Shown: positions 2,271 through 21,217 of the stretch, one piece after another
Numbering within the stretch: position 1 is the first letter of the stretch
Layout of the letters: every line of letters begins with the position of its first letter
Assembly: GCA_035574915.1 (NCBI GenBank)
Contig: DATLYJ010000005.1
Span: 1 to 32,944 of the forward strand
DNA from: Dehalococcoidia bacterium
GTDB taxonomy: Bacteria; Chloroflexota; Dehalococcoidia; DSTF01; WHTK01
Direction: 5' to 3'
Length of the DNA: 32,944 bases
Notes under the pieces: generated by a model
Told to the model about the DNA's origin: nothing
Databases searched by the model: none
What the model saw: only the letters and a program-made list of their open reading frames with translations
Position numbers and translations under genes: made by a program

Positions 2271-4151
2271 TCAGGCGGGCTTGAAGGGCGGCTTCGTATC
2301 GTCGATCCAGACGGCCTGGCCGAAGGTCTCCGTGACGGCGTTGCCGCCGGCGTAAGTGCGCAGGAGGCCAAGGTTGGCGACGCAAGGCCAGTAAGTGCCG
2401 AAACCGAGGGCGTCGTACGGGTAGGGGCGCTGATAGCTCTTGCCCGTGATGTAACGGATGAAGTCGCCGACGAGATCCTGCTGCTTCTGCAGGTCGAACT
2501 CGCCGCGGATCTTCTCGATCATGGAGTTGGCCTGCGGGTCGCCGAGGTGCGCGTTGCGGCCGTCGGGCGCCATGCCGTGGAAGCGGGCGCCGTCCTTGTG
2601 CATGGTGGCGAAGAGCTGCGAAGCGACGGTCGGGTAGCCGCGCTCGGCGGCCCAGATGATGCCGTTGTACCCGGGCGGCGTCTTGCCGGGGTTCGCGGAC
2701 TGGGTGTAGCTGTAGTAGTAGTTTGGCAGCCAGTCGGTCTGGTAGTCCTTGGGCTGCTGCCTGACGCGAATGCCGCCTTCACTGAACATTCCGACCAGTA
2801 TCTCGGCGACACGATGATAGGTCGTGCCGTACTGGGTCCCCTGGTTGTAGTAAAGGTCGGTCTCGAAGCCGTTCGGGAAGCCGGCCGCTGTTAGCAGCTT
2901 CTTGGATTCTGCCGGGTTGAAGCGCAGGTACTTGGCGTTCGGGCCGAACTTCTTGTCATCCAGCGGGTCGACCCAGTAGCCCTCCCAGCCGGCGCCAACC
3001 ATCGTGTGGTAGCGAATAGGCACCTCCAGCCCGTCGGCGGCGAACTTCGGCCGGTTCGAGATCACGTCCGCCATGAGCTCGACGTCGATCAGCATTGAAG
3101 CTGCCTGACGGACGCGCTCGTCCTTGAAGGGCGAGTTGCCCTCGTAGCCGAAGCCTATGAACGAGGGAGTGGTGGCGAAGCTTTCGCCCTGGCGCAGCAA
3201 CAGCGCTGGTATGTCCTTCTTGGTCTGAATGACGTCATCCTGCGTAGCCTGGGTAAGCCAGATGTTGCCTGCCCGGAACTGGGCGAGGCGGGAAGCGTAC
3301 TCGCTGACGATCGGGTTTTCGACCTTGTCGTAGTAAGGCCGGCCCTTCACGTAGTAGTCCGGGTTCTTGCGCCAGACGTGGAGGGCCGAGGGGCGGTACT
3401 CCTCGAGCAGGAAGGGCCCGTAGCCGCGCACCTCACCCTTGGGGTCGAAGCCGCCGTCTGACTCGCGCGGCATTACGAAGAACAGGATCGCCGTGGTGAA
3501 AAGCTGGACGATGGACGCGTCCGGCTGCTTCATCTTGAAGACCACCGTGCGCTTGTCAGGCGCGGAGACGGACTCCACCGGCGCCTGGGGATTGGCCTCC
3601 GAATAGGCCATGTCCGGGCGGAAGGGGCTGACCTGGGCGAACTTCTTCCAGCTAAAGACGACATCATCGGCGTCGATTTCGCGGCCGCTCGTGGGCGCAC
3701 GGTTTTCCCACTTGAGGCCTTGCCGCAGCTTGAAGGTCAGTTGCAGCTTGTCGCCGCTCAGCTCGAAGGACTCCGCCAGGTCTCCCTCGGACGCGCCGGT
3801 CGCCCGGTTCGGGTACTTCGCGGCCACGAACTTCAGCATGCGGGGGTAGGTGTAGTAGGCAACAGAGCTTTGAGTGTTGAAGGACGAGCTGGAGAGGGGG
3901 TCGAAGCTGACTACGTCCGTGTTGATGACGTTCTTGAAGACGCCGCCCGGCTTTGCCCGGGCCGACGAGTCTTCCGGGGTCGACAGAAGGCCGCTACGGT
4001 CGACTGGCTGGGCGGGACGTTCCTCGCCGCCGCCGCAGCCGACGGCGCCAAGGGCCGCTACCCCGACCCCGGCGGCCATGCCTCCGGCGAGGACGCGACG
4101 CCGCGAGGCGCGCGATAGGGTGAACCGCTCCCAGTAACCCTTTTCTGCCAT
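2271..4151 (-). CDS. ABC transporter family-5 substrate-binding lipoprotein (SBP paralog 1)
   Basis: This is a 626-residue extracytoplasmic solute-binding protein of the DppA/OppA type (SBP_bac_5). The N terminus has MAEKGYWERF, then a twin-arginine motif SRRRVLAG, a hydrophobic stretch and a lipobox ending VGC followed by Gly; it should be exported folded by Tat and lipid-anchored. The mature part shows DPLSSSSFNTQS, EGDLAESFE, LKWENRAPTSGREIDADDVVFSWK and RGYGPFLLEEY, the usual family-5 landmarks. The chosen ATG has GAAGGAGCG just upstream; a longer frame reaches 4259 but would cover the promoter. Its closest relative here appears to be paralog 4 (shared SDGGFDP segment). No permease gene is adjacent. 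The ligand is unknown; peptides are the default guess. Confidence 0.88.
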   Translation of the reverse strand: MAEKGYWERFTLSRASRRRVLAGGMAAGVGVAALGAVGCGGGEERPAQPVDRSGLLSTPEDSSARAKPGGVFKNVINTDVVSFDPLSSSSFNTQSSVAYYTYPRMLKFVAAKYPNRATGASEGDLAESFELSGDKLQLTFKLRQGLKWENRAPTSGREIDADDVVFSWKKFAQVSPFRPDMAYSEANPQAPVESVSAPDKRTVVFKMKQPDASIVQLFTTAILFFVMPRESDGGFDPKGEVRGYGPFLLEEYRPSALHVWRKNPDYYVKGRPYYDKVENPIVSEYASRLAQFRAGNIWLTQATQDDVIQTKKDIPALLLRQGESFATTPSFIGFGYEGNSPFKDERVRQAASMLIDVELMADVISNRPKFAADGLEVPIRYHTMVGAGWEGYWVDPLDDKKFGPNAKYLRFNPAESKKLLTAAGFPNGFETDLYYNQGTQYGTTYHRVAEILVGMFSEGGIRVRQQPKDYQTDWLPNYYYSYTQSANPGKTPPGYNGIIWAAERGYPTVASQLFATMHKDGARFHGMAPDGRNAHLGDPQANSMIEKIRGEFDLQKQQDLVGDFIRYITGKSYQRPYPYDALGFGTYWPCVANLGLLRTYAGGNAVTETFGQAVWIDDTKPPFKPA

Positions 4152-4231
4152 CTTTCGCTCCTTCGTTCCGTTCTGTCCCGCTCGCGCGGCCGCACTCAAT
4201 TTACGCATTGACTGCGTGGATAGATGGCTCC

Positions 4232-4259
4232 AGTATCGCTCGCGACTCCAGCCTGTCAA
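4232..4259 (-). promoter_or_regulatory. Promoter of SBP paralog 1
   Basis: On the minus strand, TTGACA (4259-4254), a 16-nt spacer and GATACT (4237-4232) form a good -35/-10 pair upstream of the ATG at 4151. A small inverted repeat, ACGCA-TTGAC-TGCGT (4203-4217), follows in the leader. Confidence 0.6.
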
Positions 4260-4296
4260 TCCTCGCCTGCGCAGCCTGCAGGCGCTCTCAGAATCA

Positions 4297-4320
4297 GGGA
4301 GCCGGCTGATGCCGGCTCCC
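4297..4320 (-). terminator. Terminator hairpin downstream of SBP paralog 2
   Basis: A perfect 10-bp stem (GGGAGCCGGC / GCCGGCTCCC, loop TGAT) begins 25 nt after the stop at 4346. The T tract on the minus strand is weak. Confidence 0.65.
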
Positions 4321-4345
4321 CTGAAGAAGATTTCTCCCTTCTCGG

Positions 4346-6211
4346 TCAGGAGGGACGGTTAAGCGGCGGCTTGCTGGTATCGATCCACCAGTACGGGACG
4401 TAGAACTCGTTGGTCGGGCTGCCGCCAACCTGGGTGCGGTAGAGGCCGTAGTTCCCTATGACGGGCCAGTAGGCCTGGATGGTGAGCGAAGTCGGGACCG
4501 GCGGGATGGAGTAGACCTGCCCGGCGGCGTAACGCAGGATGTCGTGCACCATGGCGATCTGCTTTTTGGTGTCGAACTCGCGCCGGGCCGCCTCGATCAT
4601 CTGGTTGAGCTTGGGGTCGCCCTGCTTGGCGTTGCCGCCATCCGGGCGCACGCCGCGGTAGCGGCCGCCACTGGGATGGTAGTTGCCGAAGAGCTGGGCA
4701 ATCGCCGTCGGGTAGGCGAGCTCCAGCCGGTACATGAAGCCGTTGTAACCGTTCGAGCGGTCACCGGTGTAGCTGTAGTAGACCTCCGGAATGTACTCGG
4801 TCTGGTACTCCTTCGGCGTCGACTGGGCCTCGATGCCGATCTCCTTGACCATGCCGACGATGATTTCGACCGTGCGTTCGTAAGCGGCGCCGTACTGCCT
4901 GGGTGTCCAGAAGAGGGGCGCCTTGAAGCCGTTGGGGAAGCCGGCCGCGGCCATGAGCTTCTTACCCTCGGCAATGTCGAACTTCGACCACCACTTCGCG
5001 TTCGGGCCGAACTCCTTCTCGTCCTGGGGGTCGAGCCAGTACTCGCCCCAGCCGGCGCCGAGGAGGGTTTGATAACGCGTGGCGAGGTCGTAGCCCTCGC
5101 GGCGGAATTGGTCGCGGTTGGATATCACATCGGCCATCGTCTCGCGGTCGATGGCGAGAGCCACTGCCTGCCGGACGCGCAGGTCCTTGAAGGGCGAGTC
5201 GCCCTCGTAGCCCCAGGAGATGTGCCCGGGCGTCGCGGTGTACTCCGAGTCGCGTTGGACGGCGAGCTGGGGCACTTCCTTAATCACCGAGAGGACGTCT
5301 TCGGCGGTGGCGACGGGCGTCCAGATGTTGCCCGCCTTGAACTGGGCCAAGCGCTGGGCGTACTCGGTGATGTGGGGCTGCTCAATCTCGTCGAAGAAGG
5401 GTCGGCCTTTGACGTAGTAGTCCGGTATCTTCTTCCAGTGGAACAGGGCGGAGGGCGTGTACTTCTCCAGCATGAAGGGCCCGTAGCCGCGCACCTCGTT
5501 ACGAGGGTCGAACTTGTCCTCTGCCTCGCGCGGCATGACGAAGAAAATGCGGGCGCTGGCGAGTAGCTGGAGGGTCGAGGCGTCCGGTTCGTGGAGCTTG
5601 ACGATCACGGTGCGCTTGTCCGGGGCGACCATGTCCGTGACTGGCGCACCGGGGGCCGCTGGGTCGTACTTCAGGTCGCTGCGGCGCACGCCTACCTGGG
5701 AGAACTTCTTCCAGTTCCAGACGACATCTTCGGCGTCGATCTCGCGGCCGTTGGTGGGCGAACGGGCGTCCCACTTGAGGCCGGGCCTGATCTTCAAGGT
5801 GACCTGGAGCTTGTCGCCTGAGACCTCGAAGGACTCGGCCAGGTCTCCCTCAACGCTGCCGTCGGTGAACTCCGGGTACTTCGCCGGCTTGAACTTCAGA
5901 AGACGCGGATAAGTGTAGACAGAGACAGCAGTGAGGGTTGTGAATCCCTGCGAGGTATGAGGGTCGAGAGAGGCGGGGTTGGCGGAGCCGTAGACGCCCT
6001 TGAAGACACCGCCGGGTTTGGCGCGAGAGGTGGTGTCTACCGGCTCCTGGACCTTGCCCTGGGTCTTCGGCGAAGGCTCCCCGCCGCTTTCGCCGCCGCC
6101 ACAACCGGCCAGGGCGATGGTGGCCGCGCCCAGACCGGCCGTGGCGCTGCCGGCGATGGCCCGGCGCCTGGTGATGCGGACGGCACGAAATCTCTCCCAG
6201 TAGCTTTGCAT
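4346..6211 (-). CDS. ABC transporter family-5 substrate-binding lipoprotein (SBP paralog 2)
   Basis: This 621-residue family-5 solute-binding protein starts MQSYWERF, has a Tat-type TRRRAIAG motif, and then a lipobox LAGC followed by GGG. Landmarks include ASLDPHTSQGF, EGDLAESFE, NGREIDAEDVVWNWKK and RGYGPFMLEKY. It is strikingly like paralog 3 along its whole length, far more than like paralogs 1, 4 or 5, so the two look like the most recent duplicates. The ATG is fixed by AAAGGAGCG 8-9 nt upstream. The gene is a single-gene unit with its own promoter, a leader inverted repeat and a terminator. It should sit on the outer face of the cytoplasmic membrane and deliver an oligopeptide-like or other ligand to a permease encoded elsewhere. 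Confidence 0.88.
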   Translation of the reverse strand: MQSYWERFRAVRITRRRAIAGSATAGLGAATIALAGCGGGESGGEPSPKTQGKVQEPVDTTSRAKPGGVFKGVYGSANPASLDPHTSQGFTTLTAVSVYTYPRLLKFKPAKYPEFTDGSVEGDLAESFEVSGDKLQVTLKIRPGLKWDARSPTNGREIDAEDVVWNWKKFSQVGVRRSDLKYDPAAPGAPVTDMVAPDKRTVIVKLHEPDASTLQLLASARIFFVMPREAEDKFDPRNEVRGYGPFMLEKYTPSALFHWKKIPDYYVKGRPFFDEIEQPHITEYAQRLAQFKAGNIWTPVATAEDVLSVIKEVPQLAVQRDSEYTATPGHISWGYEGDSPFKDLRVRQAVALAIDRETMADVISNRDQFRREGYDLATRYQTLLGAGWGEYWLDPQDEKEFGPNAKWWSKFDIAEGKKLMAAAGFPNGFKAPLFWTPRQYGAAYERTVEIIVGMVKEIGIEAQSTPKEYQTEYIPEVYYSYTGDRSNGYNGFMYRLELAYPTAIAQLFGNYHPSGGRYRGVRPDGGNAKQGDPKLNQMIEAARREFDTKKQIAMVHDILRYAAGQVYSIPPVPTSLTIQAYWPVIGNYGLYRTQVGGSPTNEFYVPYWWIDTSKPPLNRPS

Positions 6212-6240
6212 CGTTCCGCGCTCCTTTGCAAGACGTTATC

Positions 6241-6264
6241 TATGAGGCGATAGGACGCCTCATA
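6241..6264. promoter_or_regulatory. Perfect inverted repeat in the leader of SBP paralog 2
   Basis: TATGAGGCG and CGCCTCATA form perfect 9-bp arms around a 6-nt spacer (ATAGGA). The element lies between the -10 region and the Shine-Dalgarno, so it could be a regulator operator or an mRNA stem-loop. I see no equally good copy before the other four paralogs. Confidence 0.5.
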
Positions 6265-6275
6265 AGATGCAACAG

Positions 6276-6303
6276 AATTCAACTGTGCGGAGCGCGCTGT
6301 CAA
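6276..6303 (-). promoter_or_regulatory. Promoter of SBP paralog 2
   Basis: On the minus strand a perfect TTGACA (6303-6298) is followed after 16 nt by TGAATT, a weak -10. The position relative to the gene matches the other paralogs. Confidence 0.5.
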
Positions 6304-6313
6304 TACCCCGACC

Positions 6314-6350
6314 GGCAAAAAGAAGAGGGGCCGGTGGCTACCGGCCCCTC
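6314..6350 (-). terminator. Intrinsic terminator downstream of SBP paralog 3
   Basis: A perfect 11-bp stem (GAGGGGCCGGT / ACCGGCCCCTC, loop GGCT) is followed on the minus strand by TTCTTTTTG, a real T tract. It begins 22 nt past the stop at 6373. Confidence 0.85.
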
Positions 6351-6372
6351 CTGCGGGCGTCCCGGCGAAAGG

Positions 6373-8241
6373 TCAAGCCGGCCGGTTGAGCGGCGGCTTG
6401 GTGGTGTCGATCCACCAGTAGGGCACGTAGGACTCGTTCGTAGGGCTGCCGCCGGTCTGGGTGCGGTAGAGGCCGTAGTTCGCGATCACCGGCCAGTAGG
6501 CGACGATGCCGAGGTTCGCCGGTCGCGGCGGGATGGAGTAGACCTGGCCGGCGGCGTAGCGCAGGATGTCGTGCACCATAGCGATCTGCTTCTTGGTGTC
6601 GAATTCCTTCCGCGCGGCCTCGATCATCTGGTTGAGTTTGGGATCGCCCTGCTTGGCGTTGCCGCCGTCCGGGCGCACGCCGCGGTAGCGGCCGCCGCTG
6701 GGGTGGTAGTTCCCGAAGAGCTGTGCCACGGCCGTAGGGTAGGCAAGCTCGGCGCGGTAGATCATGCCGTTGAAGCCGCGCGTGCTGTCCCCGGTGTAGC
6801 TGTAGTAGATTTCCGGGATGTACTCGGTCTGGTACTCCTTCGGTGAGGACTGCGCCTCGATGCCGACTTCCTTGAACATGCCGATGAGGATGTCGACCTC
6901 GCGCTCGTAGGCGGCGCCGTACTGGCGCGGCGTCCAGTAGAGGTTTGTCTTAAACCCATTCGGGAAGCCCGCCGCGGACAGGAGTTTCTTCGCCTCGGAT
7001 GGGTTGTACTCGCTCCACCACTTCCCGTTCGGGCCGAACTCCTTGGAGTCCTGGGGGTCGAGCCAGTAGTCGCCCCAGCCGGCGCCGAGCAGCGTCTGAT
7101 ACTTCGTGACGGGCTCGAAGCCCTCGGCCTTGAACTTTGGCCTGTCGTAGGTGACGTCCGCGATCGCCTCGCGGTCGATGGCGAGCGCGACGGCCTGGCG
7201 CACGCGCAGGTCCTTGAACGGTGAGTCGCCCTCGTAACCCCAGGAGACGTGAGTCGGCGTCGGGTTGAGGTCCGCTTCCTGCTGGACTGCGAGCTGGGGC
7301 ACTTCCTTGATCACCGAGAGCACGTCCTGGGCGGTCGAGACCGGCGTCCAGATGTTGCCGGCCTTGAACTGCGCCAGGCGCTGCGCGTACTCGGTTACGT
7401 GAGGCTGCTCGATCTCGTCGAAGAACGGCCGCCCCTTGCGGTAGTAGTCCGGGATCTTCTTCCAGTGGAAGAGGGCGGAAGGAGTGTACTTCTCCAGCGT
7501 GAACGGCCCGTAGCCGCGGACCTCGTTGCGGGAGTCGAACTTGTCCTCCGCCTCGCGCGGCACGACGAAGAAGATGCGGGCGCTGGCCAGCAGCTGAAGG
7601 GCGGAGGAGTCGGGCTCCTTCAGCTTCACGATGACCGTGCGCTTGTCGGGGGCGATCATGTCGGTCACCGGGGCGCCCGGCGCGGCCGGGTCGTACATCA
7701 GGTCGGAGCGGCGGACGCCGACCTGGGAGAACTTCTTCCAGTTCCAGACGACATCTTCGGCGTCGATCTCGCGGCCGTTTGTGGGGGAGCGGGCGTCCCA
7801 CTTCATGCCCGGACGGATCTTCAGGGTCACCTGGAGCTTGTCGCCCGAGACCTCGAAGGACTCGGCGAGGTCTCCTTCGACGCTCCCGTCGGTGAAGTCG
7901 GGATACTTCGCCGGCTTGAAGGTGAGCAAGCGAGGGTACACATATACGGCGACTGCCGTGAGGGTGGTGAACCCCTGCGAGGTATGTGGGTCGAGAGAGG
8001 CCGGGTTGGCTGAGATGTAGACGCTCTTGAGGACGCCGCCAGGCTTCGCCTGTGACGTCGTATCGACCGGGATTTGCACCTTGCCCTGTGTCTGGCCCCG
8101 GCCGCCACCGCTGTCATCGCCTCCGCCTCCGCAACCGGCCACCGCCAGCGCGATTCCCCCGGCGCCGAGGGCCGCCGCTCCTGCCAGCACCCTTCGCCGG
8201 GCTGTGCGGGCGGCAGCGAAACGCTCCCAATAACCTTGCAT
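6373..8241 (-). CDS. ABC transporter family-5 substrate-binding lipoprotein (SBP paralog 3)
   Basis: This 622-residue family-5 solute-binding protein begins MQGYWERFAAARTARRRVLAG (YWER motif plus Tat arginines) and continues through a hydrophobic stretch to the lipobox VAGC and a Gly-rich linker. The mature protein is nearly superimposable on paralog 2 (ASLDPHTSQGF, EGDLAESFE, RGYGPFTLEKY, SGGRYRGVRPDGGNAKQGD). The frame is open up to 8316, but the ATG at 8241 has AAAGGAG at the right distance and the upstream frame runs into the promoter area. Same role as its neighbours: a lipid-anchored binding protein feeding an unlinked ABC permease. Differences from paralog 2 are concentrated in the middle region and near the ligand-binding loops, which would fit changed ligand preference. 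Confidence 0.88.
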   Translation of the reverse strand: MQGYWERFAAARTARRRVLAGAAALGAGGIALAVAGCGGGGDDSGGGRGQTQGKVQIPVDTTSQAKPGGVLKSVYISANPASLDPHTSQGFTTLTAVAVYVYPRLLTFKPAKYPDFTDGSVEGDLAESFEVSGDKLQVTLKIRPGMKWDARSPTNGREIDAEDVVWNWKKFSQVGVRRSDLMYDPAAPGAPVTDMIAPDKRTVIVKLKEPDSSALQLLASARIFFVVPREAEDKFDSRNEVRGYGPFTLEKYTPSALFHWKKIPDYYRKGRPFFDEIEQPHVTEYAQRLAQFKAGNIWTPVSTAQDVLSVIKEVPQLAVQQEADLNPTPTHVSWGYEGDSPFKDLRVRQAVALAIDREAIADVTYDRPKFKAEGFEPVTKYQTLLGAGWGDYWLDPQDSKEFGPNGKWWSEYNPSEAKKLLSAAGFPNGFKTNLYWTPRQYGAAYEREVDILIGMFKEVGIEAQSSPKEYQTEYIPEIYYSYTGDSTRGFNGMIYRAELAYPTAVAQLFGNYHPSGGRYRGVRPDGGNAKQGDPKLNQMIEAARKEFDTKKQIAMVHDILRYAAGQVYSIPPRPANLGIVAYWPVIANYGLYRTQTGGSPTNESYVPYWWIDTTKPPLNRPA

Positions 8242-8300
8242 ATACCTTTGTGCTCCTTTTAGGGCCGGTTGTTGTCGCGTGCCGGCCATTATTGCTGCGG

Positions 8301-8329
8301 ATAGTCGCCTCCACACGCAGGCGTGTCAA
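8301..8329 (-). promoter_or_regulatory. Promoter of SBP paralog 3
   Basis: On the minus strand TTGACA (8329-8324), a 17-nt spacer and GACTAT (8306-8301). The -10 is a partial match only. A GGCCGG...CCGGCC inverted repeat (8263-8287) lies in the leader. Confidence 0.5.
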
Positions 8330-8345
8330 GAGCCTCGAAATCTGG

Positions 8346-8373
8346 ACGAGGGCCTGCGAAAGCAGGCCCTCGT
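8346..8373 (-). terminator. Terminator hairpin downstream of SBP paralog 4
   Basis: A perfect 12-bp stem (ACGAGGGCCTGC / GCAGGCCCTCGT) with a GAAA loop begins 27 nt after the stop at 8401. No long T tract follows. Confidence 0.75.
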
Positions 8374-8400
8374 GTCAGAAGCCGTCGCCGGCGGGAGACT

Positions 8401-10281
8401 TCAGGAGGCCTTCACGGGCGGCTGGGTCTGGTCCAGCCACCAGTGGATCGTAGACTCGACGGCCGCATTACCGCCGGGGTAGGTCACATAGGCCCCGATG
8501 TTCCGGATCACCGGCCAGTAGACGCCGAAGTTCTTCGCGCCCACCGGCCGCGGCACCTGGTAGGCCTTGCCCGTCATGTAGCGGATGAAGTCCTTCACCA
8601 GGGCCTGCTGCTTCTCGATGTCGAACTCGCGCTGGATCTGCTCGATCATCGCGTTGACCTTCGGGTCCCCGAGGTGGGCGTTGTTGCCGGTGTCGGTCAG
8701 GCCCTGGAAGAGCGAGCCGTCCTTGTGGAAGGTGCCGAACAGCTGTGACGCGACCGTCGGGTAACTCTTGTGGGCAGCGTAGACCAGGCCGTTGAACCCC
8801 TTGACCCTGCCGGACTCGTACGCGGCTCGGACGTAACCGAGGTAGTAGTTGTCGTAGTAGGTCTGGTAAGGGATGGGGTTCTCGCGCGAGCGTATGCCGC
8901 CGTCGCGGAGGTTGCCCGCGAACACGTCCTTGATGAGGTGATAGGTGGCGCCGTAGTTGTTGTCCGCGTTGTAGATGAGGTCGACGTCGACGCCGTTGGC
9001 GTAGCCCGCGGCGCTCATCAGCTTCTTCGCCTCGGCGATGTCGAGCTTCAGGTACTTGTGGTTCGGGCCGAACTCCTTCTCGTTGTAGGGGTCGATCCAG
9101 TAGCCGGCCCAGCCGGCGCCGACGATGGTGTGGTAGGCGATCGGGATGTCGAGGCCCTCCCGGGCGAGGCCGTCCTTGTTGTGGACGACGTTCGCGAACG
9201 CCTCCCGGTCGATCAGCAACGATACGGCCTGGCGCATGCGCTCGTCCTTGAAGACGGAGTTGCCTTCGTAGCCGAAGCGGATGTGCGAGGAGACGCCTGT
9301 CGGGAAGCTGTCGTCCTGGTAGACGAGGCCCTGGGGGACGTCCTTGATCGTCTGAGGGATGTCGGTCTGGAGTAGTCCGTGCACGTCCGTCCAGATGTTG
9401 CCGGCTTTGAACTGCGCCAGGCGCGCCGCGTATTCAGGGAGGATCGGCTCTTCGCGCGCGTCGTAGAAGGGGCGGTTCTTGACGTAATAGTCCGGGTTCT
9501 TCTTCCAGCGGAAGTACGCGGACGGACGGTACTCGTCGAGGATCCAGGGCCCGTGGCCGCGGACCTCCGCCCTGGGGTCGAAACCGCCATCGGACTCGCG
9601 CGGCATGACGAAGAAGTGGGCGGCGGACGTCAGGAGCTGGAGCAGCGAAGAGTCCGGCTGCTTGAGCTTGAAGATGATCGTGTTGCGGTCCGGCGACGAG
9701 ATGGACTCGATGGGCGCGCCGGCGCTCTTCTCCGCGTCGTAGGCCAGGTCCTGCGCGGCGGCGTTGCGGGAGGTGAACTTCCGCCAGCTGAAGAGGACGT
9801 CCTCCGCGTCGATGAGGCGGCCGTTTGTGGGGGCGCGAGCGTCCCATTTGAGGTCGCGCTTCAGCTTCAGGGTGAGCTGGAGCTTGTCGCCGCTGATCTC
9901 GAAAGAGTCCGCGAGGTCACCCTCGGACTCGCCCGATGGCTGCTCCGGATACTTTGCCGCCTTGAATTTGAGCAGACGCGGATAAGCGAGGGTCGCCACG
10001 GACAGGGTCTGTGCGTTGTTCGTCGAGAGTACGTCGAAGCCCGTGGGCACGTCGGCCGTACGGACGGTCTTCAGGGTGCCGCCGGTCTTTGCCTTGGCGG
10101 TCTCGTCCTGCGGCCGCTGAATGAGGCCGCTCTGCTCGCCCAGCTTCGCGCCTCCGTCCCCTCCTCCGCCGCAGCCCACCATCGATAGGGCAGCGACGCC
10201 TGTTCCGGCCGCCGCTGCTGTGGCGATGGCCCTCCGCCTCGAAAGTCGAGAGGAGGTGATCCGCTCCCAGTAACCTGCCAT
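8401..10281 (-). CDS. ABC transporter family-5 substrate-binding lipoprotein (SBP paralog 4)
   Basis: This 626-residue family-5 solute-binding protein begins MAGYWERITSSR, followed by Tat motif SRRRAIAT, a hydrophobic core and the lipobox MVGC plus Gly. Landmarks are EGDLADSFE, NGRLIDAEDVLFSWRK, SDGGFDP and RGHGPWILDEY. It groups by eye with paralog 1 rather than with the 2/3 pair. The start is the ATG with CAAAGGAGC upstream; the frame extends to 10353 but that overlaps the -35 box. The gene is the first of the four minus-strand copies, and the divergent TetR gene begins 156 nt away. That makes it the copy whose promoter is best placed for control by that repressor. Confidence 0.88.
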   Translation of the reverse strand: MAGYWERITSSRLSRRRAIATAAAAGTGVAALSMVGCGGGGDGGAKLGEQSGLIQRPQDETAKAKTGGTLKTVRTADVPTGFDVLSTNNAQTLSVATLAYPRLLKFKAAKYPEQPSGESEGDLADSFEISGDKLQLTLKLKRDLKWDARAPTNGRLIDAEDVLFSWRKFTSRNAAAQDLAYDAEKSAGAPIESISSPDRNTIIFKLKQPDSSLLQLLTSAAHFFVMPRESDGGFDPRAEVRGHGPWILDEYRPSAYFRWKKNPDYYVKNRPFYDAREEPILPEYAARLAQFKAGNIWTDVHGLLQTDIPQTIKDVPQGLVYQDDSFPTGVSSHIRFGYEGNSVFKDERMRQAVSLLIDREAFANVVHNKDGLAREGLDIPIAYHTIVGAGWAGYWIDPYNEKEFGPNHKYLKLDIAEAKKLMSAAGYANGVDVDLIYNADNNYGATYHLIKDVFAGNLRDGGIRSRENPIPYQTYYDNYYLGYVRAAYESGRVKGFNGLVYAAHKSYPTVASQLFGTFHKDGSLFQGLTDTGNNAHLGDPKVNAMIEQIQREFDIEKQQALVKDFIRYMTGKAYQVPRPVGAKNFGVYWPVIRNIGAYVTYPGGNAAVESTIHWWLDQTQPPVKAS

Positions 10282-10325
10282 CTGTTGCTCCTTTGAAGTG
10301 CAGGTGGACTTTGAAGATTCCCAAA

Positions 10326-10353
10326 GGTGTACTTTCCTGGCCTTACCTGTCAA
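10326..10353 (-). promoter_or_regulatory. Promoter of SBP paralog 4
   Basis: On the minus strand a perfect TTGACA (10353-10348) is followed after 16 nt by TACACC, a poor -10. The leader holds a direct repeat CTTTGAAG (two copies about 10 nt apart), one of which overlaps the Shine-Dalgarno. Confidence 0.45.
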
Positions 10354-11270: not shown

Positions 11271-13067
11271 ATGTCCTCATCGAATTACTGGGTTCGGATC
11301 CGGGACCAGAGGATACCCCGCCGTAGTGCTCTCGCCGGGGCGTCGACCGTAGGGCTTGGCGCCGCTGCCCTGGCGTTGGCCGGCTGCGGCGGCGGCGGAG
11401 AGGGGGGCGCGGGGTCCAAAGCGTCCGATTCGAGGCTCGGCAAGCCTGAGGACACCACTCGCCAGGCCGTACAGGGCGGCACCTTCCAGGACTACATCAC
11501 GACCGAGGTCCAGACGTTCGACCTGGCGCGCACCAGCAACTTCACTGCCTTCAACACGGTTGGGTGGCGCATATACGGCCGACTGCTGCGCTACAACTCC
11601 GGTCCGTTAGGGGAGGCGATTACCTCGAAGATCGAGGGGGACCTCGCGGAGTCCTTCGAGGTCACGCAGGACGGCCTCACCTGGACCTTCAAGTTGCGGC
11701 CCAACGTGAAAATGCAGCCAGTGGCGCCGCTGAACGGCCGTCCGCTGGACATCGAGGACGTGAGGCTGAGCTGGGAGCGCTTCATCGAGGGCAGCCCCCG
11801 CCGCGTCCGGTTCGACATGGTGGACAGCGTCTCCTTCCCGGACGCCCGCACCATGGTCTTCAAGAACAAGTTCCCTTATGCGCCTTTCGGGCCCCTGATC
11901 GCGGACACAAGCTCTTTCTGGATCATGCCCAAGGAAGTGGCGAAGGGCGAGGTGGACTACCGCCCCGTTGGCGCCGGCACCGGGCCTTTCATCCTCGAGA
12001 ACTACCAGCGCGGCGCCTTCCTGCGTTGGAAGCGAAACCCGAACTACTTCGACGCCCCGCGGCCGTACGTCGAGACGGTGGAGATGCCGATCATCACGGA
12101 ATACGCCCAGCGGGCAGCGCAGTTCCGCGCGAAGAACATCGACGTCTTTACGCCGCTGGAGCCGGACGTCCTGAGCATGTTCAACGACCTGCCAGACGCC
12201 ACCGCCTGGCAGGGCGACTTCACGCTTTCGCAGAACTACGTGCTGTTCCCGCGCAACAGCGCCCCCTTCGGTGGCCAGCACGGCCAGCCAGGCGGCGACG
12301 TGCGCCTGCGGCGCGCCCTCTCCATGGCCTTCGACCGCGACACCTTCATCGACGTCTTCCGAAACGTTACGCCCATCCGCAACGCCGGGTTCAGCGTCGA
12401 CGTGAAGTGGGACAACCTGCTGTCGCCCGGGTGGACTTTCTACCTCGACCCGCAGGACTCGAAAGAGATGGGATACCCGGAGAAGGCGCCAGGCAAGTGG
12501 TACAAATACGACGTCGCCGAAGCCAAGAAGCTGCTCGCCGCGGCTGGCTTCCCCAACGGCATCGACTCCGAGATCCACTACTCGACCATCTGGACGGGCG
12601 ACTTCACGCGCCGGATGGAGGTCACGCGCGACATGTGGAGGGAGGCCGGCTTCCGGTTCGACAAGCTCGTGGGGCACGAGTTTCAGACGGACTACCTGCC
12701 CAACGTGATCACGAAGGGCGACTTCAATGGCGTGCGCCTCGGCCCGTTTACGGAGTACACGGAGGAGGATCAGTACTGGGTGTCCGCCTTCAGGCCGGGC
12801 ACGGACCGCAACCCCGCGGGCTGGGACGACCCCAAAGTCCTGGACCTGATCGACAAGCAGCGGCGCGAGTTCGACGTCGAGAAACGCAAGCGCCTCAACT
12901 GGGACCTGCAGGTCTACCTCTCGGACAACATGTACAACATCCCCTGGGGCGGCCAGGCGACGAGCGGCTTCACGTTTACGCAGCCCTGGGTGAAAAACTA
13001 CCGGGTGTACCGCCAGGTCCCGAACTCGGCGACCTACCTGTGGCTGGACCATACGAAGAGGTCGTAG
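11271..13067 (+). CDS. ABC transporter family-5 substrate-binding lipoprotein (SBP paralog 5)
   Basis: This 598-residue family-5 solute-binding protein is the most divergent of the five. The N terminus has NYWVRIRDQR, a Tat motif of the form PRRSALAG, a hydrophobic stretch and the lipobox LAGC followed by GGGG. Further landmarks are EGDLAESFE, NGRPLDIEDVRLSWERF, GTGPFILENY and RRALSMAFDRDTF. It keeps the YWxR signature but lacks the third Arg of the RRR seen in the other four. The ATG has GAAGGGAG upstream. It is transcribed on the opposite strand from the other copies and follows the TetR gene, from which it has its own promoter and a long structured leader. It is expected to be a lipid-anchored binding protein; no permease is nearby. 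Confidence 0.88.
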   Translation: MSSSNYWVRIRDQRIPRRSALAGASTVGLGAAALALAGCGGGGEGGAGSKASDSRLGKPEDTTRQAVQGGTFQDYITTEVQTFDLARTSNFTAFNTVGWRIYGRLLRYNSGPLGEAITSKIEGDLAESFEVTQDGLTWTFKLRPNVKMQPVAPLNGRPLDIEDVRLSWERFIEGSPRRVRFDMVDSVSFPDARTMVFKNKFPYAPFGPLIADTSSFWIMPKEVAKGEVDYRPVGAGTGPFILENYQRGAFLRWKRNPNYFDAPRPYVETVEMPIITEYAQRAAQFRAKNIDVFTPLEPDVLSMFNDLPDATAWQGDFTLSQNYVLFPRNSAPFGGQHGQPGGDVRLRRALSMAFDRDTFIDVFRNVTPIRNAGFSVDVKWDNLLSPGWTFYLDPQDSKEMGYPEKAPGKWYKYDVAEAKKLLAAAGFPNGIDSEIHYSTIWTGDFTRRMEVTRDMWREAGFRFDKLVGHEFQTDYLPNVITKGDFNGVRLGPFTEYTEEDQYWVSAFRPGTDRNPAGWDDPKVLDLIDKQRREFDVEKRKRLNWDLQVYLSDNMYNIPWGGQATSGFTFTQPWVKNYRVYRQVPNSATYLWLDHTKRS

Positions 13068-16026: not shown

Positions 16027-16446
16027 CTAATCCGCGGCCACTGTCCGGAACTTGGGCACCGCCACCTCCTCCGACAGATCCTCGAAGACGGCCTCGACGC
16101 GCGCGCCGACGCGGATGTCGCTGTTCGCAACCCCGACGAGGTTGGAGATGATGCGCGGCCCTTCGTCCAGCTCCACCAGCGCGACGTTATAGGGCACCTC
16201 GTCCTTGAAGGAGGGGTGCAGCACCTGGTGCATGACCACGAAGCTGTAGACTACCCCCCGGCCTGAAGCCTCTGCCCACTCCAGCGCCTCACTGGTGCAG
16301 GCGTCGCAGGCCTCGCGCTGGGGCGCCAGGTTGCGGCCGCAGTTGCTGCAGCGCTTGATCAGGAGCCGGCCCTCCTTCGCCGCGCGGAAGAACTCCGCGC
16401 TGCGTTCGTCAGGGGTCGGGATCGGGCGGTTAGTGGTAGTGGTCAT
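16027..16446 (-). CDS. DUF35 zinc-ribbon / OB-fold protein
   Basis: This 139-residue protein has an N-terminal helix (ERSAEFFRAAKEGRLLI), a rubredoxin-like zinc ribbon with Cys33, Cys36, Cys47 and Cys50, then an OB fold (GVVYSFVVMHQV, VPYNVALVELDEGPRI). DUF35 proteins bind acyl-CoA and are obligate partners of thiolase-fold enzymes, for example the acetoacetyl-CoA thiolase/HMG-CoA synthase channel of archaea and the Ltp2 aldolase of actinobacterial steroid side-chain breakdown. The thiolase-fold gene is immediately upstream on the same strand, 112 nt away, which supports a complex. GAGGAGA lies 5 nt before the ATG. DinB follows 13 nt downstream. Confidence 0.9.
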   Translation of the reverse strand: MTTTTNRPIPTPDERSAEFFRAAKEGRLLIKRCSNCGRNLAPQREACDACTSEALEWAEASGRGVVYSFVVMHQVLHPSFKDEVPYNVALVELDEGPRIISNLVGVANSDIRVGARVEAVFEDLSEEVAVPKFRTVAAD

Positions 16447-16464
16447 GTCGTCTCCTCAGTACGG

Positions 16465-16556
16465 AGGGAGTGCAGCGTACAGAGTGCAGTAGTGCAGAGA
16501 TCGAGCTGGCTATGCGGTGGACCCTGCACCATGCACTCTGCACCCTGCACTCTCCT
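16465..16556. repeat. Long imperfect palindrome built of GTGCAG / CTGCAC units
   Basis: The left arm (16465-16497) and right arm (16524-16556) are each 33 nt. The reverse complement of one aligns to the other with only a few mismatches and small gaps, around a 26-nt loop. Each arm contains three TGCAG (or CTGCA) units. It fills the gap between the Ltp2-like gene and the DUF35 gene. It could be a terminator, an mRNA processing or stabilising stem, or a relic of a small palindromic mobile element. Confidence 0.6.
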
Positions 16557-16558
16557 GC

Positions 16559-17758
16559 TCAGGCCGGCCTCGGGCTAAGGATGATCGACGCGTGGTAGTC
16601 GAGTATCCCGCCGTTGCCGGTGACCAGAACAAGGTCGTTCTTCGCCACCTGGCGCTGGCCGCCCCCTCCTCGCGCCTGGATGACGCCTTCGGACATGGGT
16701 GTCATGCCCCACATGTAGAAGGCGCTAAGTTCGCCGCCGCCGGTGTTCGTTGGCAGGCTGCCGCCGGGGCCGAGCTTGCCGTCCTCAACGAAGGCGCCGC
16801 CTTCTCCCTTGGCGCAGAAGCCGTAGTCTTCGAGCGTCACGAGCACGGTGTAGGTGTAGCAGTCGTAAAGTTCGCAGATGTCTATGTCCTTCGCCGTGAT
16901 GCCCAGTTGTCCGTACAGGGTCTCGCGCGCGATCACCGCTCCCGTCGACACTTCGTGCGGGTCGCCGGCGCTGCGGGAGTCGCCCGGGTGGCCCTGGGCC
17001 ATCGCCAGCACGTACGCGGGCGAAGCCTTCGCGTCCGCCGCTCGCTCGACGGAGGTCACGATGACGGCGACGGCGCCGTTCGACACGAGGCAGCAGTCGA
17101 GCAGGTGCAGCGGCTCGACGATGAAGCGCGAGGCCTGGTGGTCCTCGATCGTGATCGGCGTGCGCATCTGCGCGCGGTCATTCATGACCGCCCAGTCGCG
17201 CTCCGCGACCGCTATCGCCCCGAACTGCTCGCTCGTCGTGCCGAACTCGGCCATGTGCCGCCGCGCCGCCATGGCGTATCCGATGTTTACACCGAAGTAA
17301 CCATAGTGGGCGTTGAGGCCCGCCCAGCCCGGCGGCCCTGCCGGCCTTCCGTTCCCGCTGGCCGCGGCCGCCCGTGCGGCGCCACCGTAGGCAGCGCCCG
17401 AAGAAGCGCCCGGGGCCGCCAGCGGCGTGTCCGCGAACACGCAGGCCACGTAGTTCGCCATGCCGTTCTGCACCGCCATCGAGGCGTACTGCACCATCTG
17501 GCAGGCCGTAGACCCGGCCGCGTTCATGTGGTTCAGGAGCCGCAGCCCCTTGAAGCCGCCCGCGTTCTGTAGGCCCAGCCCGATGCTGTTGCTGATCCCG
17601 GCGTTGATCAGGAGGCCGTCCAGGTCGTCCTTCTTGAGCCCTGCGTCCTCGAGGGCGAGGTTGATCGCCTCGATCGCGAGGCTTGTCCCCGAGCGCCCGA
17701 AGACCTTCCCCATCTCTGTAATCCCGAGACCTACAATCGCGGCCTTTGCCTGCGCCAT
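16559..17758 (-). CDS. Thiolase-superfamily protein resembling Ltp2-type retro-aldolases (no nucleophilic Cys)
   Basis: This 399-residue thiolase-fold protein has the N-terminal half (IVGLGITEMGKV, LALEDAGLKKDDLDGLL, GSTACQMVQYASMAVQNG) and the C-terminal half (CELYDCYTYTVLVTLEDYG, NTGGGELSAFYMWGM, LVTGNGG) of the SCP-x/lipid-transfer group. In true thiolases the nucleophile is the Cys of CxSGS; here the aligned residues are Asn79-Ala-Ala-Gly-Ser, so thiolysis is unlikely. Tyr298 (LYDCY) and Tyr348 (AFYMW) stand 50 residues apart, matching my memory of the catalytic Tyr294 and Tyr344 of actinobacterial Ltp2. Such enzymes split beta-hydroxyacyl-CoA by retro-aldol cleavage together with a DUF35 protein, which is encoded just downstream. 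AGGAG lies 8 nt before the ATG. Side-chain degradation of a steroid-like or branched lipid is an inference. Confidence 0.8.
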   Translation of the reverse strand: MAQAKAAIVGLGITEMGKVFGRSGTSLAIEAINLALEDAGLKKDDLDGLLINAGISNSIGLGLQNAGGFKGLRLLNHMNAAGSTACQMVQYASMAVQNGMANYVACVFADTPLAAPGASSGAAYGGAARAAAASGNGRPAGPPGWAGLNAHYGYFGVNIGYAMAARRHMAEFGTTSEQFGAIAVAERDWAVMNDRAQMRTPITIEDHQASRFIVEPLHLLDCCLVSNGAVAVIVTSVERAADAKASPAYVLAMAQGHPGDSRSAGDPHEVSTGAVIARETLYGQLGITAKDIDICELYDCYTYTVLVTLEDYGFCAKGEGGAFVEDGKLGPGGSLPTNTGGGELSAFYMWGMTPMSEGVIQARGGGGQRQVAKNDLVLVTGNGGILDYHASIILSPRPA

Positions 17759-18545: not shown

Positions 18546-18983
18546 CTAGAGGTGCTCGATGCTCACGTCACGCCATTGGGCCTGAAGGTACTCCGCCGCC
18601 AGCCGCCTGTGACACCTGTCTGCCTTGGGCTCACTGCAGAGCAGCGCGATCCTACGGGCGAAGTCCGACGGACGCAACTCCTTCGCGACCGCGCGTTCTA
18701 CGAGAAGGTCCTGGTAGCGCCGGGCGTAGGTTTCCCACTCGATCTCCTTCGAGCGATAAGCCTTGAGCAGGTCCTCCGCCGGCGCCAGCAGCAGTTCATG
18801 CCGGTAGCCGATGCCGGCGATGGAGGCCAGCAGATAGGGGAGGTCGGACTTCTTGGTGAAGCCGGTCAGCTGGGAGACGTTGTTCAGCCGGACGTCGACG
18901 AGTTGCTCGACCCGGGCGCGCTTCAGTGACTCGAAGAACTGCTCGGCCGTCTTGCCGGCAAAACCGATCGTGAAGATCTCCAC
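18546..18983 (-). CDS. DUF488 family protein B
   Basis: This 145-residue DUF488 protein shows the family landmarks: TIGFAGK at residues 5-11 (the usual TIGHS with His replaced), DVRLNN at 30-35, and the terminal Cys116...Cys124-His125-Arg126 motif (CSEPKADRCHRR). The family is of unknown biochemical function; the conserved Asp-Val-Arg and Cys/His residues suggest an enzyme. It begins at a GTG with GAGGAG 5-6 nt upstream; that ribosome site and the first 20 codons lie inside the end of the preceding DUF488 gene (61-nt overlap). The dual-OB gene follows after two bases. The TIGF-type and TIGHS-type proteins are clearly different subfamilies, so this is a heterologous pair and not a recent duplication. 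Confidence 0.85.
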   Translation of the reverse strand: MEIFTIGFAGKTAEQFFESLKRARVEQLVDVRLNNVSQLTGFTKKSDLPYLLASIAGIGYRHELLLAPAEDLLKAYRSKEIEWETYARRYQDLLVERAVAKELRPSDFARRIALLCSEPKADRCHRRLAAEYLQAQWRDVSIEHL

Positions 18984-19531
18984 AGGCTCTCCTCGCCGTC
19001 GTCGAAGAAGCCGCGCTGCGCCAGACTGGAGACCTTCTGTGCGCCCGCGATCTCCGCTTCGTCCTGGACGCGGCCGTCGCCGCGGATATGGTGGATGGCA
19101 TACCCGTCGCCGGCAAGGACGCGGCCGATCAGCAGCCTGCGGTGGCAGTCAGTCGGGTCCTCTTCCGAGCACATGATCGCGACGCGCTCGTGCTGCTCCA
19201 CGAGCAGCTTCAAGCGCGACAAGCCCAGCGCGAAGAACTCGCTCTGTGCCACCTTGTAGTACAGGACGTGCCCGTGGACGTCGTAGTATTCGTGCCCCCC
19301 GGGCCGGCCACCGAGCGTGTCGCCGGCGAAGACGTAGGCGATGCCGGCATGCTCGAGCCGCTGGGCCAGGGCAGCGTGGTTGAACTGGGGCGCGAACTGC
19401 GAGTAGGGCTGTGAGCGCACGTCTATCAGGGCGCTGATGCGGCTCAACGCCAGCAGCCTCAGGAAGCGGTCCAGGCTCTGGTTCGAATGCCCGATGGTGT
19501 AGACAACCGCCGAGGCCGAGCGCGCGCACAT
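18923..19531 (-). CDS. DUF488 family protein A
   Basis: About 202 residues. The family motifs are TIGHS at 12-16, DVRSQPYS at 37-44 and Cys121...Cys129-His130-Arg131 (CSEEDPTDCHRR). Between them is a Tyr-rich segment (HEYYDVHGHVLYYKV) typical of the larger DUF488 subgroup. The last 20 or so residues, rich in Ser and Arg, lie over the start of the next gene in another frame and may be read-through after loss of an original stop. The frame opens at 19612 (GTG), but the ATG at 19531 is preferred: a -10 element ends 9 nt upstream, so the mRNA is probably leaderless, and the family motif starts 11 residues later. It is the first gene of the DUF488-DUF488-dual-OB operon. Confidence 0.85.
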   Translation of the reverse strand: MCARSASAVVYTIGHSNQSLDRFLRLLALSRISALIDVRSQPYSQFAPQFNHAALAQRLEHAGIAYVFAGDTLGGRPGGHEYYDVHGHVLYYKVAQSEFFALGLSRLKLLVEQHERVAIMCSEEDPTDCHRRLLIGRVLAGDGYAIHHIRGDGRVQDEAEIAGAQKVSSLAQRGFFDDGEESLWRSSRSVLPARRPSSSSSH

Positions 19532-19534
19532 GTT

Positions 19535-19548
19535 CGAACAAATATTCG
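19535..19548. promoter_or_regulatory. LexA-like (SOS) box candidate overlapping the DUF488 promoter
   Basis: CGAACAAATATTCG matches the Gram-positive LexA consensus CGAACRNRYGTTYG at all fixed positions but one (A for G at the tenth base). It covers the -10 element of the DUF488 operon and lies just before the ATG, where a repressor would block transcription. Next to it is the perfect palindrome TGTTCGAACA (19531-19540). The LexA box of this lineage is not known to me, so the call is tentative. Confidence 0.4.
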
Positions 19549-19570
19549 CGCCGCCCGTCCGCCTTGTCAA
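19541..19570 (-). promoter_or_regulatory. Promoter of the DUF488 operon (leaderless)
   Basis: On the minus strand TTGACA (19570-19565), an 18-nt spacer and AATATT (19546-19541). The ATG at 19531 would lie at or within a few bases of the transcript start; there is no Shine-Dalgarno. Confidence 0.55.
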
Positions 19571-19600
19571 CACGGGGTCGGGCGAAGGGTGAGCGTCTGT

Positions 19601-19606
19601 TAGAAT
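19601..19606 (+). promoter_or_regulatory. Extended -10 promoter of the PHP gene
   Basis: TAGAAT preceded by TGT (TGnTAGAAT) lies 14 nt before the TTG codon at 19621. No -35 is seen, as is usual for extended -10 promoters. It faces away from the DUF488 promoter. Confidence 0.45.
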
Positions 19607-19620
19607 CCGCACAGACTCAC

Positions 19621-20294: not shown

Positions 20295-20771
20295 ATGGCT
20301 CTGCCGGCTCAGGACGAGGAGCTGAGCTACGACGAAAGCGTCGTAGGTGTCGAGGTCGAGACCGGGCGTTTCGAGGTGACGAAGGAGCACATCCTCTCCT
20401 TCTGCGAGGCCATTGGTGACACGAACCCGCTGTTTACGGACGAGGAGGCCGCCAGGACAGGTCCCTACGGCGGACTCATCGCTCCCCCGGCCTTCTACAC
20501 CTCCATCCGCACCGGCGGCGGCCTCGACCCGAAGCTGCGCTACGGTAACCTGACCCTGAACGCCGGCCAGCACTGGGAGTACCACGCCCCGATCCGTCCC
20601 GGAGATACGATTACAGCCCGGACGAAGGTGCATGACATCTACGAGAAGACCGGCCGCACCGGCCGCATGGTCTTCCTCGTGCGCCGCACGACCTACACCA
20701 ACCAGCGCGGCGAGGTCGTGGCGGTGTCCGACGCCTCCCTGGTGCACCGGAAGGTGGAGCAGCAGCAATGA
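20295..20771 (+). CDS. MaoC-fold dehydratase/hydratase subunit (FAS1-like N-terminal type)
   Basis: This 158-residue hot-dog-fold protein has the MaoC_dehydrat_N signature AIGDTNPLFTDEEAA followed by GLIAPPAFY. In active R-hydratases the motif is GDxNPxH; here the His position is Phe, as in structural subunits such as HadA. It is expected to pair with the next gene, whose ATG overlaps this stop by four bases. Pairs of this kind hydrate or dehydrate enoyl-CoA or acyl-carrier-bound chains in beta-oxidation-like or fatty-acid pathways. A GGGGGGTGG Shine-Dalgarno lies within the end of the PHP gene, 2 nt away. The pathway could be linked to the Ltp2-like aldolase 2.5 kb away, but this is inferred only from known pathway pairs. 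Confidence 0.85.
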   Translation: MALPAQDEELSYDESVVGVEVETGRFEVTKEHILSFCEAIGDTNPLFTDEEAARTGPYGGLIAPPAFYTSIRTGGGLDPKLRYGNLTLNAGQHWEYHAPIRPGDTITARTKVHDIYEKTGRTGRMVFLVRRTTYTNQRGEVVAVSDASLVHRKVEQQQ

Positions 20772-21217
20772 GAGAGCAGGTCTACGGCGAAGACATCGAG
20801 CCCGGCGACGAGATTGGCCCCCTGCTCAAGCATCCGGACCTCGCCCAGGTCCAAAAGTACCTAGCCGCCGGCCGCATGGGTGACGGCAGCGGCATGTCGA
20901 GTCGCTTCACGAGCGATGAGGCCGCCCGCAGGGAGGGCCTCGCCGGCCCGATAATCCCGGGGCCAATGAGCCAGGCGTTCCTGTCGCAGCTCCTCACGGA
21001 CTGGTGCGGCCCAGAGGGCTGGGTCCAGAGCCTCGAGGTCAACTTCCGCCGCTCGACCCGGCACGGCGAACCTCTGAAGTGCATTGGGCTCATTACGGAC
21101 AAGCAGGACCAGGGGGACAGGACCCTCGTCCGCCTGGACGTGTTCATCGAGGACCCTCGCGGCGACCGGCCGACGCAGGGCGTGGCCGAAGTCCTGATCC
21201 CGGCGCGCAGGCCCTGA
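20768..21217 (+). CDS. MaoC-fold hydratase partner subunit
   Basis: This 149-residue hot-dog-fold protein has the parts RFTSDEAARREGLAGPIIPGPMSQAFL and the strand WVQSLEVNFRRSTRHGEPL. It has the same fold as its neighbour and the same GPxxPGPM turn seen in HadB/MaoC2 proteins. The residues that would align with the catalytic Asp and His of MaoC hydratases look replaced (Ser and Arg by eye), so catalysis through the standard dyad is doubtful. The gene begins in the ATGA overlap with the upstream subunit, which supports a heterodimer. The UspA gene follows after 22 nt. Confidence 0.8.
   Translation: MREQVYGEDIEPGDEIGPLLKHPDLAQVQKYLAAGRMGDGSGMSSRFTSDEAARREGLAGPIIPGPMSQAFLSQLLTDWCGPEGWVQSLEVNFRRSTRHGEPLKCIGLITDKQDQGDRTLVRLDVFIEDPRGDRPTQGVAEVLIPARRP

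Follow-up and report, generated by a model that had tools for sequence, protein, structure and literature searches.

Two adjoining genes in the window (the whole stretch of 32,944 nucleotides that we analysed) are likely to encode a heteromeric acyl-CoA retro-aldolase whose predicted active site mixes features of Ltp2 and Sal. In the literature we found no assay for any member of its exact clade (YDCY together with Tyr348). A preliminary description of this DNA had already suggested a retro-aldolase with a DUF35 partner, and this suggestion is strengthened by a Tyr pair that never varies, a Gly where thiolases have their nucleophile, linkage to DUF35 genes and a clade shared with the ibuprofen enzyme IpfD. 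The pair probably acts on a 3-hydroxyacyl-CoA that is alpha-branched or alicyclic, rather than on a classical steroid.

A thiolase-fold protein and its DUF35 neighbour

Both ORFs named in the preliminary description were recovered (Table 1). The 399-residue ORF is followed downstream on the same strand, after a gap of 112 bp, by the 139-residue DUF35 ORF. The best PDB match of the larger protein is TcLtp2 (6ok1_A, E 5.5e-65), with further matches to a Sphaerobacter "thiolase" (4u4e) and to CtSal (9myr_A, E 1.6e-47), and it also has a Thiolase_C_1 domain match. These matches, together with an AF2 model built from 52 sequences (pLDDT 85.6, pTM 0.89), confirm the thiolase fold proposed earlier. 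The top structure matches of the model were Ltp2 (6ok1_C, Z 46.1), 4u4e (45.9) and Sal (9myr, 45.4). Because these scores of 45-46 are tied, the fold sets the protein in this group without choosing among the three, and the modelled fold alone does not separate aldolases from their thiolase relatives.

The smaller protein contains zf-ChsH2 and OB_ChsH2_C domains and is closest to ChsH2(DUF35) (6ok1_B, E 4.1e-24) and ShyDUF35. Its C4 zinc pattern is canonical for DUF35 partners (PMC12329534). NCBIfam subfamily models also match, in every case below the model cut-off. The pairing itself is widely kept: a DUF35 gene lies on the same strand no more than 1.6 kb away in 78 of 80 named orthologues and is the sole constant neighbour. 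In the query's own genome, each of the eight DUF35 genes adjoins a different thiolase-fold gene. That genome likely belongs to class Dehalococcoidia, in support of the earlier assignment to Chloroflexota.

Table 1. Features of the gene pair and of a nearby hydratase-like pair, in window coordinates.
Feature	Position	Strand	Basis
Thiolase-fold protein, 399 aa, proposed retro-aldolase catalytic subunit	16559..17758	-	ORF
Codon of Gly82, thiolase nucleophile Cys column	17513..17515	-	Gly in 80/80 orthologues, TcLtp2 and CtSal
Codon of Tyr298, proposed catalytic base (YDCY motif)	16865..16867	-	Aligned with TcLtp2 Tyr294 and CtSal Tyr302; 80/80
Codon of Cys300, position of CtSal catalytic acid Cys304	16859..16861	-	80/80 orthologues; Ala in IpfD
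Codon of Tyr348, proposed catalytic acid	16715..16717	-	Aligned with TcLtp2 Tyr344; 80/80; present in IpfD
DUF35/ChsH2-like protein (zinc ribbon + OB fold), 139 aa, proposed partner subunit	16027..16446	-	ORF
Zinc finger Cys33-Cys36-Cys47-Cys50 of the DUF35 protein, C-x2-C-x10-C-x2-C	16297..16350	-	Sequence and conservation
MaoC/FAS1_DH-type hydratase subunit, possible upstream step	20295..20771	+	PF13452, 2.3e-34
Second MaoC-like subunit, possible partner, start overlaps the first	20768..21217	+	Weak NF006045 match only

Active-site residues

The 399-residue protein was aligned with the 80 named orthologues (55-67% identity), TcLtp2, CtSal and thiolases. Tyr298, Asp299, Cys300 and Tyr348 are identical in all 80, and the same residue pattern was found in 18 orthologues drawn from 40 relatives. 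In TcLtp2, Tyr294 of the YDHF motif acts as the base and Tyr344 as the acid, while CtSal uses Tyr302 and Cys304 of a YDCY motif, has Gln at the Tyr344 position and requires Cys304 (PMC12329534). The two Tyr residues singled out in the preliminary description therefore hold up, as they align exactly with the TcLtp2 pair and never vary. Their separation by 50 residues, which had been offered as a sign of Ltp2, is real but uninformative by itself: with 14 Tyr placed at random, a pair so spaced arises 34% of the time, so it is positional homology and invariance that count.

The columns that hold the nucleophilic Cys, the HDCF His and the GHP His in thiolases are occupied here by Gly82, Tyr298 and Tyr348. 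True thiolases (6esq, L172 and L175) have Cys in the Gly82 column, and the Tyr348 column contains His in thiolase and Gln in CtSal. The earlier view that this is not a thiolase thus stands, since neither the nucleophilic Cys nor a thiolase His is present. Two of its details need correction. The protein was called "Cys-less" and in fact has seven Cys, Cys300 among them. An Asn was read at the nucleophile position through a slip of register: the Cys column is the invariant Gly82, and residue 79 varies (N in 38 orthologues, Q in 21, S in 15, T in 5 and E in 1), which led us to reject Asn79 as a functional residue. In the AF2 model, the helix at the nucleophile region begins at residue 81.

The query thus has the general marks of a thiolase-fold/DUF35 retro-aldolase, namely the fold, no nucleophile Cys, the motif Tyr and a DUF35 gene. 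What is new, as read from the aligned residues, is that a large clade combines the Ltp2 and Sal types of active site (Tyr, Cys, Tyr). Genes of this kind are publicly annotated as "thiolase" or "lipid-transfer protein", and the residue pattern tells the probable retro-aldolases of this broad clade apart from real thiolases.

Placement among known enzymes

In maximum-likelihood trees (LG+G4, ultrafast bootstrap), the query, its orthologues and the same-genome paralogue L002 form one clade (100). This clade is the sister of the Ltp2-containing clade (96-99 jointly), not a part of it, and stands apart from Sal. Pimelobacter simplex and Nocardia fusca have a separate gene for a true YDHF Ltp2 (L158 and L160). 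Given that and the sister placement, the query clade is not Ltp2 under another name. CtSal groups at 100 with L003 and L005, which are paralogues from the query's own genome. A second thiolase-fold/DUF35 pair in this genome (L148, G000:C163, 2481-4096) also groups with CtSal at 100, and its thiolase-fold protein, which has YDCY and a Gln where the query has Tyr348, represents the Sal type in a genome of the Chloroflexota.

TcLtp2-ChsH2(DUF35) (6ok1) resembles the query pair in the two Tyr equivalents, the Gly at the nucleophile column and the DUF35 partner, but is only 38% identical, falls in another clade and has the His of YDHF where the query has Cys. Unlike ChsH2, the query DUF35 protein is free-standing, with no fused MaoC domain. 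CtSal-CtShy(DUF35) (9myr) shares the Cys-bearing YDCY motif and a DUF35 partner; it differs in its 30% identity, its Gln in place of Tyr348, its clade and the C3H1 zinc site of Shy, which is C4 in the query partner. The 4u4e protein, a putative thiolase of Sphaerobacter thermophilus (Chloroflexota), is 39% identical and has Tyr at 298, but reads YDSF with His at 348 and falls, with support 82, on the Sal side of the tree. SCP2 thiolases and the archaeal acetoacetyl-CoA thiolase 6esq share the fold, and 6esq also a DUF35 association, but at 26% identity they retain the Cys nucleophile, the HDCF motif and the second His.

A relative from ibuprofen degradation

A tblastn search against plasmids led to pIBU218, the ibuprofen plasmid of Rhizorhabdus wittichii MPO218. 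The matching gene is flanked on one side by ring-hydroxylating dioxygenase genes and on the other by a DUF35 (OB-fold) gene with a CoA ligase. Published q-ipfE qPCR primers match one DUF35 gene uniquely (L193); they place ipfE at the adjoining DUF35 gene, so the match is ipfD. The ipf region is required for growth on ibuprofen, and the IpfD step is described as a retro-aldol cleavage giving propionyl-CoA and 4-isobutylcatechol (PMC9195938). The table and text of that paper conflict on the locus affected in each mutant, and both name the ipf region. What is known of IpfD comes from genetics and metabolism, and not from kinetics of the purified enzyme.

IpfD-IpfE (HRJ34_RS27705/27700) resembles the query pair in its 50% identity, both Tyr and the adjacent DUF35 gene. 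IpfD and the query fall within one clade (UFBoot 95-100), with weak support for their order inside it (37-60), and the IpfD subclade, which has YDAF where the query has YDCY, is a distinct branch. Two IpfD-like plasmid proteins likewise have Ala at position 300 and keep Tyr348. The ipfDE cluster includes ring-hydroxylating dioxygenase genes that the query genome does not have. IpfE (L193 13015-13413) also lacks the four zinc Cys that most DUF35 partners of the clade keep, so the two pairs are not identical in build. By sequence, then, the closest genetically studied relative of the query is this ibuprofen enzyme, not a steroid enzyme. The residue pattern also links the steroid aldolases to IpfD, a link that we did not find in the literature searched. 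Since Sal, a proteobacterial Ltp2 (Comamonas) and IpfD (sphingomonads) have already been described, the earlier remark that the query lies outside the actinobacteria where such enzymes are known is out of date. Elsewhere on pIBU218, another DUF35 gene precedes the gene of an Ltp2-like "lipid-transfer protein" (50938-52502; L193 24139-24984), and this pair adjoins enoyl-CoA hydratase and CaiB genes.

Genomic context and the steroid question

Apart from the DUF35 gene, the neighbours of the orthologues are mixed: CoA-transferase III, nitronate monooxygenase, luciferase-like proteins, ATP-grasp CoA ligase, hydratases and esterases. The MaoC pair of the window (20295-21217) lies 2.5 kb from the aldolase gene on the opposite strand. 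Its first subunit weakly matches ChsH1/ChsH2 structures, and its second has no match in the PDB. Nocardioides-type loci have a FAS1_DH/MaoC pair directly upstream of the aldolase. We rejected the window pair as a conserved operon partner, as it is not kept beside the aldolase in relatives, and as the possible upstream hydratase it is no more than a lead. The query genome yielded no ring-hydroxylating dioxygenase alpha subunit (PF00848), which makes a hydratase more likely than a dioxygenase as the maker of the 3-hydroxyl group.

Steroid side-chain cleavage had been suggested for this pair. A search of the query genome (3.25 Mb, 96.4% complete) for accompanying steroid catabolism genes covered KshA (PF19298) and the HsaC/TesB-type extradiol dioxygenase TIGR03213, and neither KshA nor TIGR03213 was present. 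Among ten named genomes with an orthologue, KshA occurs in three (Pimelobacter, Nocardia and Nocardioides) and is absent from seven. The KshA search of 301 Chloroflexota genomes gave matches in 25, at most 143 bits, so there is no general association; most KshA matches from true steroid degraders score 280-316 bits. Two genomes of the same order, G005 and G003, encode KshA-like Rieske proteins (L189 and L190, about 140 bits). A published survey likewise found neither a complete 9,10-seco pathway nor hsaC in Chloroflexi (PMC5790920). With the orthologues present in KshA-less genomes and in contexts of many kinds, the steroid proposal is not borne out.

The alternative in the same proposal, a branched acyl-CoA, is plausible, as Ltp2 and IpfD release propionyl-CoA from alpha-methyl substrates. 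For SAR202 Chloroflexota, an alicyclic, sterol/hopanoid-like route with CaiB/BaiF expansions has been proposed (PMC5395668). The query genome has 55 matches to PF02515 (CaiB/BaiF type III CoA-transferase), many as tandem pairs, and together with the SAR202 proposal these make a non-classical alicyclic substrate possible. The CaiB/BaiF set resembles the expansions described for SAR202.

Proposed mechanism and alternatives

By analogy with Ltp2-ChsH2(DUF35) and Sal-Shy(DUF35), the complex would most likely be built from two subunits of each kind, thiolase-fold and DUF35. Its reaction would split the C-alpha/C-beta bond of a 3-hydroxyacyl-CoA, itself probably made by CoA transfer and hydration, into acetyl- or propionyl-CoA and a ketone or aldehyde. 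We infer that Tyr298 takes the proton off the 3-hydroxyl group and that the CoA enolate receives its proton from Tyr348, which stands where thiolases have His. Gly82 would leave space at the site of the missing nucleophilic Cys and offer a backbone NH, and Cys300 may assist or relay protons.

The residue roles could also follow Sal, with Tyr298 as base, Cys300 as acid and Tyr348 only structural. YDCY is the CtSal motif, its Cys304 is essential there (PMC12329534), and Cys300 is invariant in the 80 orthologues. We nevertheless think this assignment unlikely, because position 348 is Gln in CtSal and invariant Tyr in the query clade, which is also nearer to Ltp2 than to Sal (UFBoot 96-99), and because Tyr348 is retained in IpfD and the two IpfD-like plasmid proteins, all three of which have Ala at 300. 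This loss of the Cys with both Tyr kept, as read from the sequences, is the best available argument that a Tyr pair, not Tyr/Cys, would be at work in the clade. The question of Tyr or Cys as the acid can be tested cleanly here, as the query clade carries both and IpfD only one.

Three further readings differ on the function of the pair. That it serves as a side-chain aldolase in a steroid or sterol pathway of Chloroflexota is very unlikely: Ltp2 and Sal are among the nearest solved enzymes by fold and sequence, and the SAR202 proposal (PMC5395668) and the PF02515 matches point the same way, but both steroid markers are missing from a 96% complete genome, as is KshA from seven of the ten orthologue-bearing genomes, steroid degraders carry a separate true Ltp2, and the Chloroflexi survey (PMC5790920) found no complete pathway and no hsaC. 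Still less probable is an IpfDE-type enzyme acting on the dihydrodiol of an aryl-acetyl- or aryl-propionyl-CoA; the identity and clade shared with IpfD favour it, as do related plasmid clusters in which it occurs together with a CoA ligase and ring-hydroxylating dioxygenases, yet the absence of PF00848 argues against a dioxygenase-fed step and the YDAF subclade is a separate branch. The least probable reading is a true thiolase or acyltransferase working with another residue, or a non-catalytic scaffold. The overall fold would suit it, as would the Friedel-Crafts acylase PhlABC and the thiolase BbsAB, in which a thiolase fold likewise has a DUF35 partner; against it, all three thiolase residues are absent, and the invariant aldolase catalytic positions argue against a dead scaffold.

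Returning to the retro-aldolase, a wider reading, which we think unlikely, is that the large Tyr/Cys/Tyr clade, with members in Chloroflexota, Actinomycetota and Pseudomonadota, serves generally for retro-aldol cleavage of acyl-CoAs that are alicyclic or branched. In these Chloroflexota it might then take part in the breakdown of recalcitrant alicyclic material, for example hopanoid- or sterol-like acids, without the 9,10-seco steroid enzymes.

Other features of the window

Four large tandem ORFs of one protein family occupy positions 2271-10353 on the minus strand. A fifth member, at 11271-13067 on the plus strand, looks like a solute-binding lipoprotein. Two adjoining, overlapping ORFs at 18546-19612 on the minus strand are DUF488-like.
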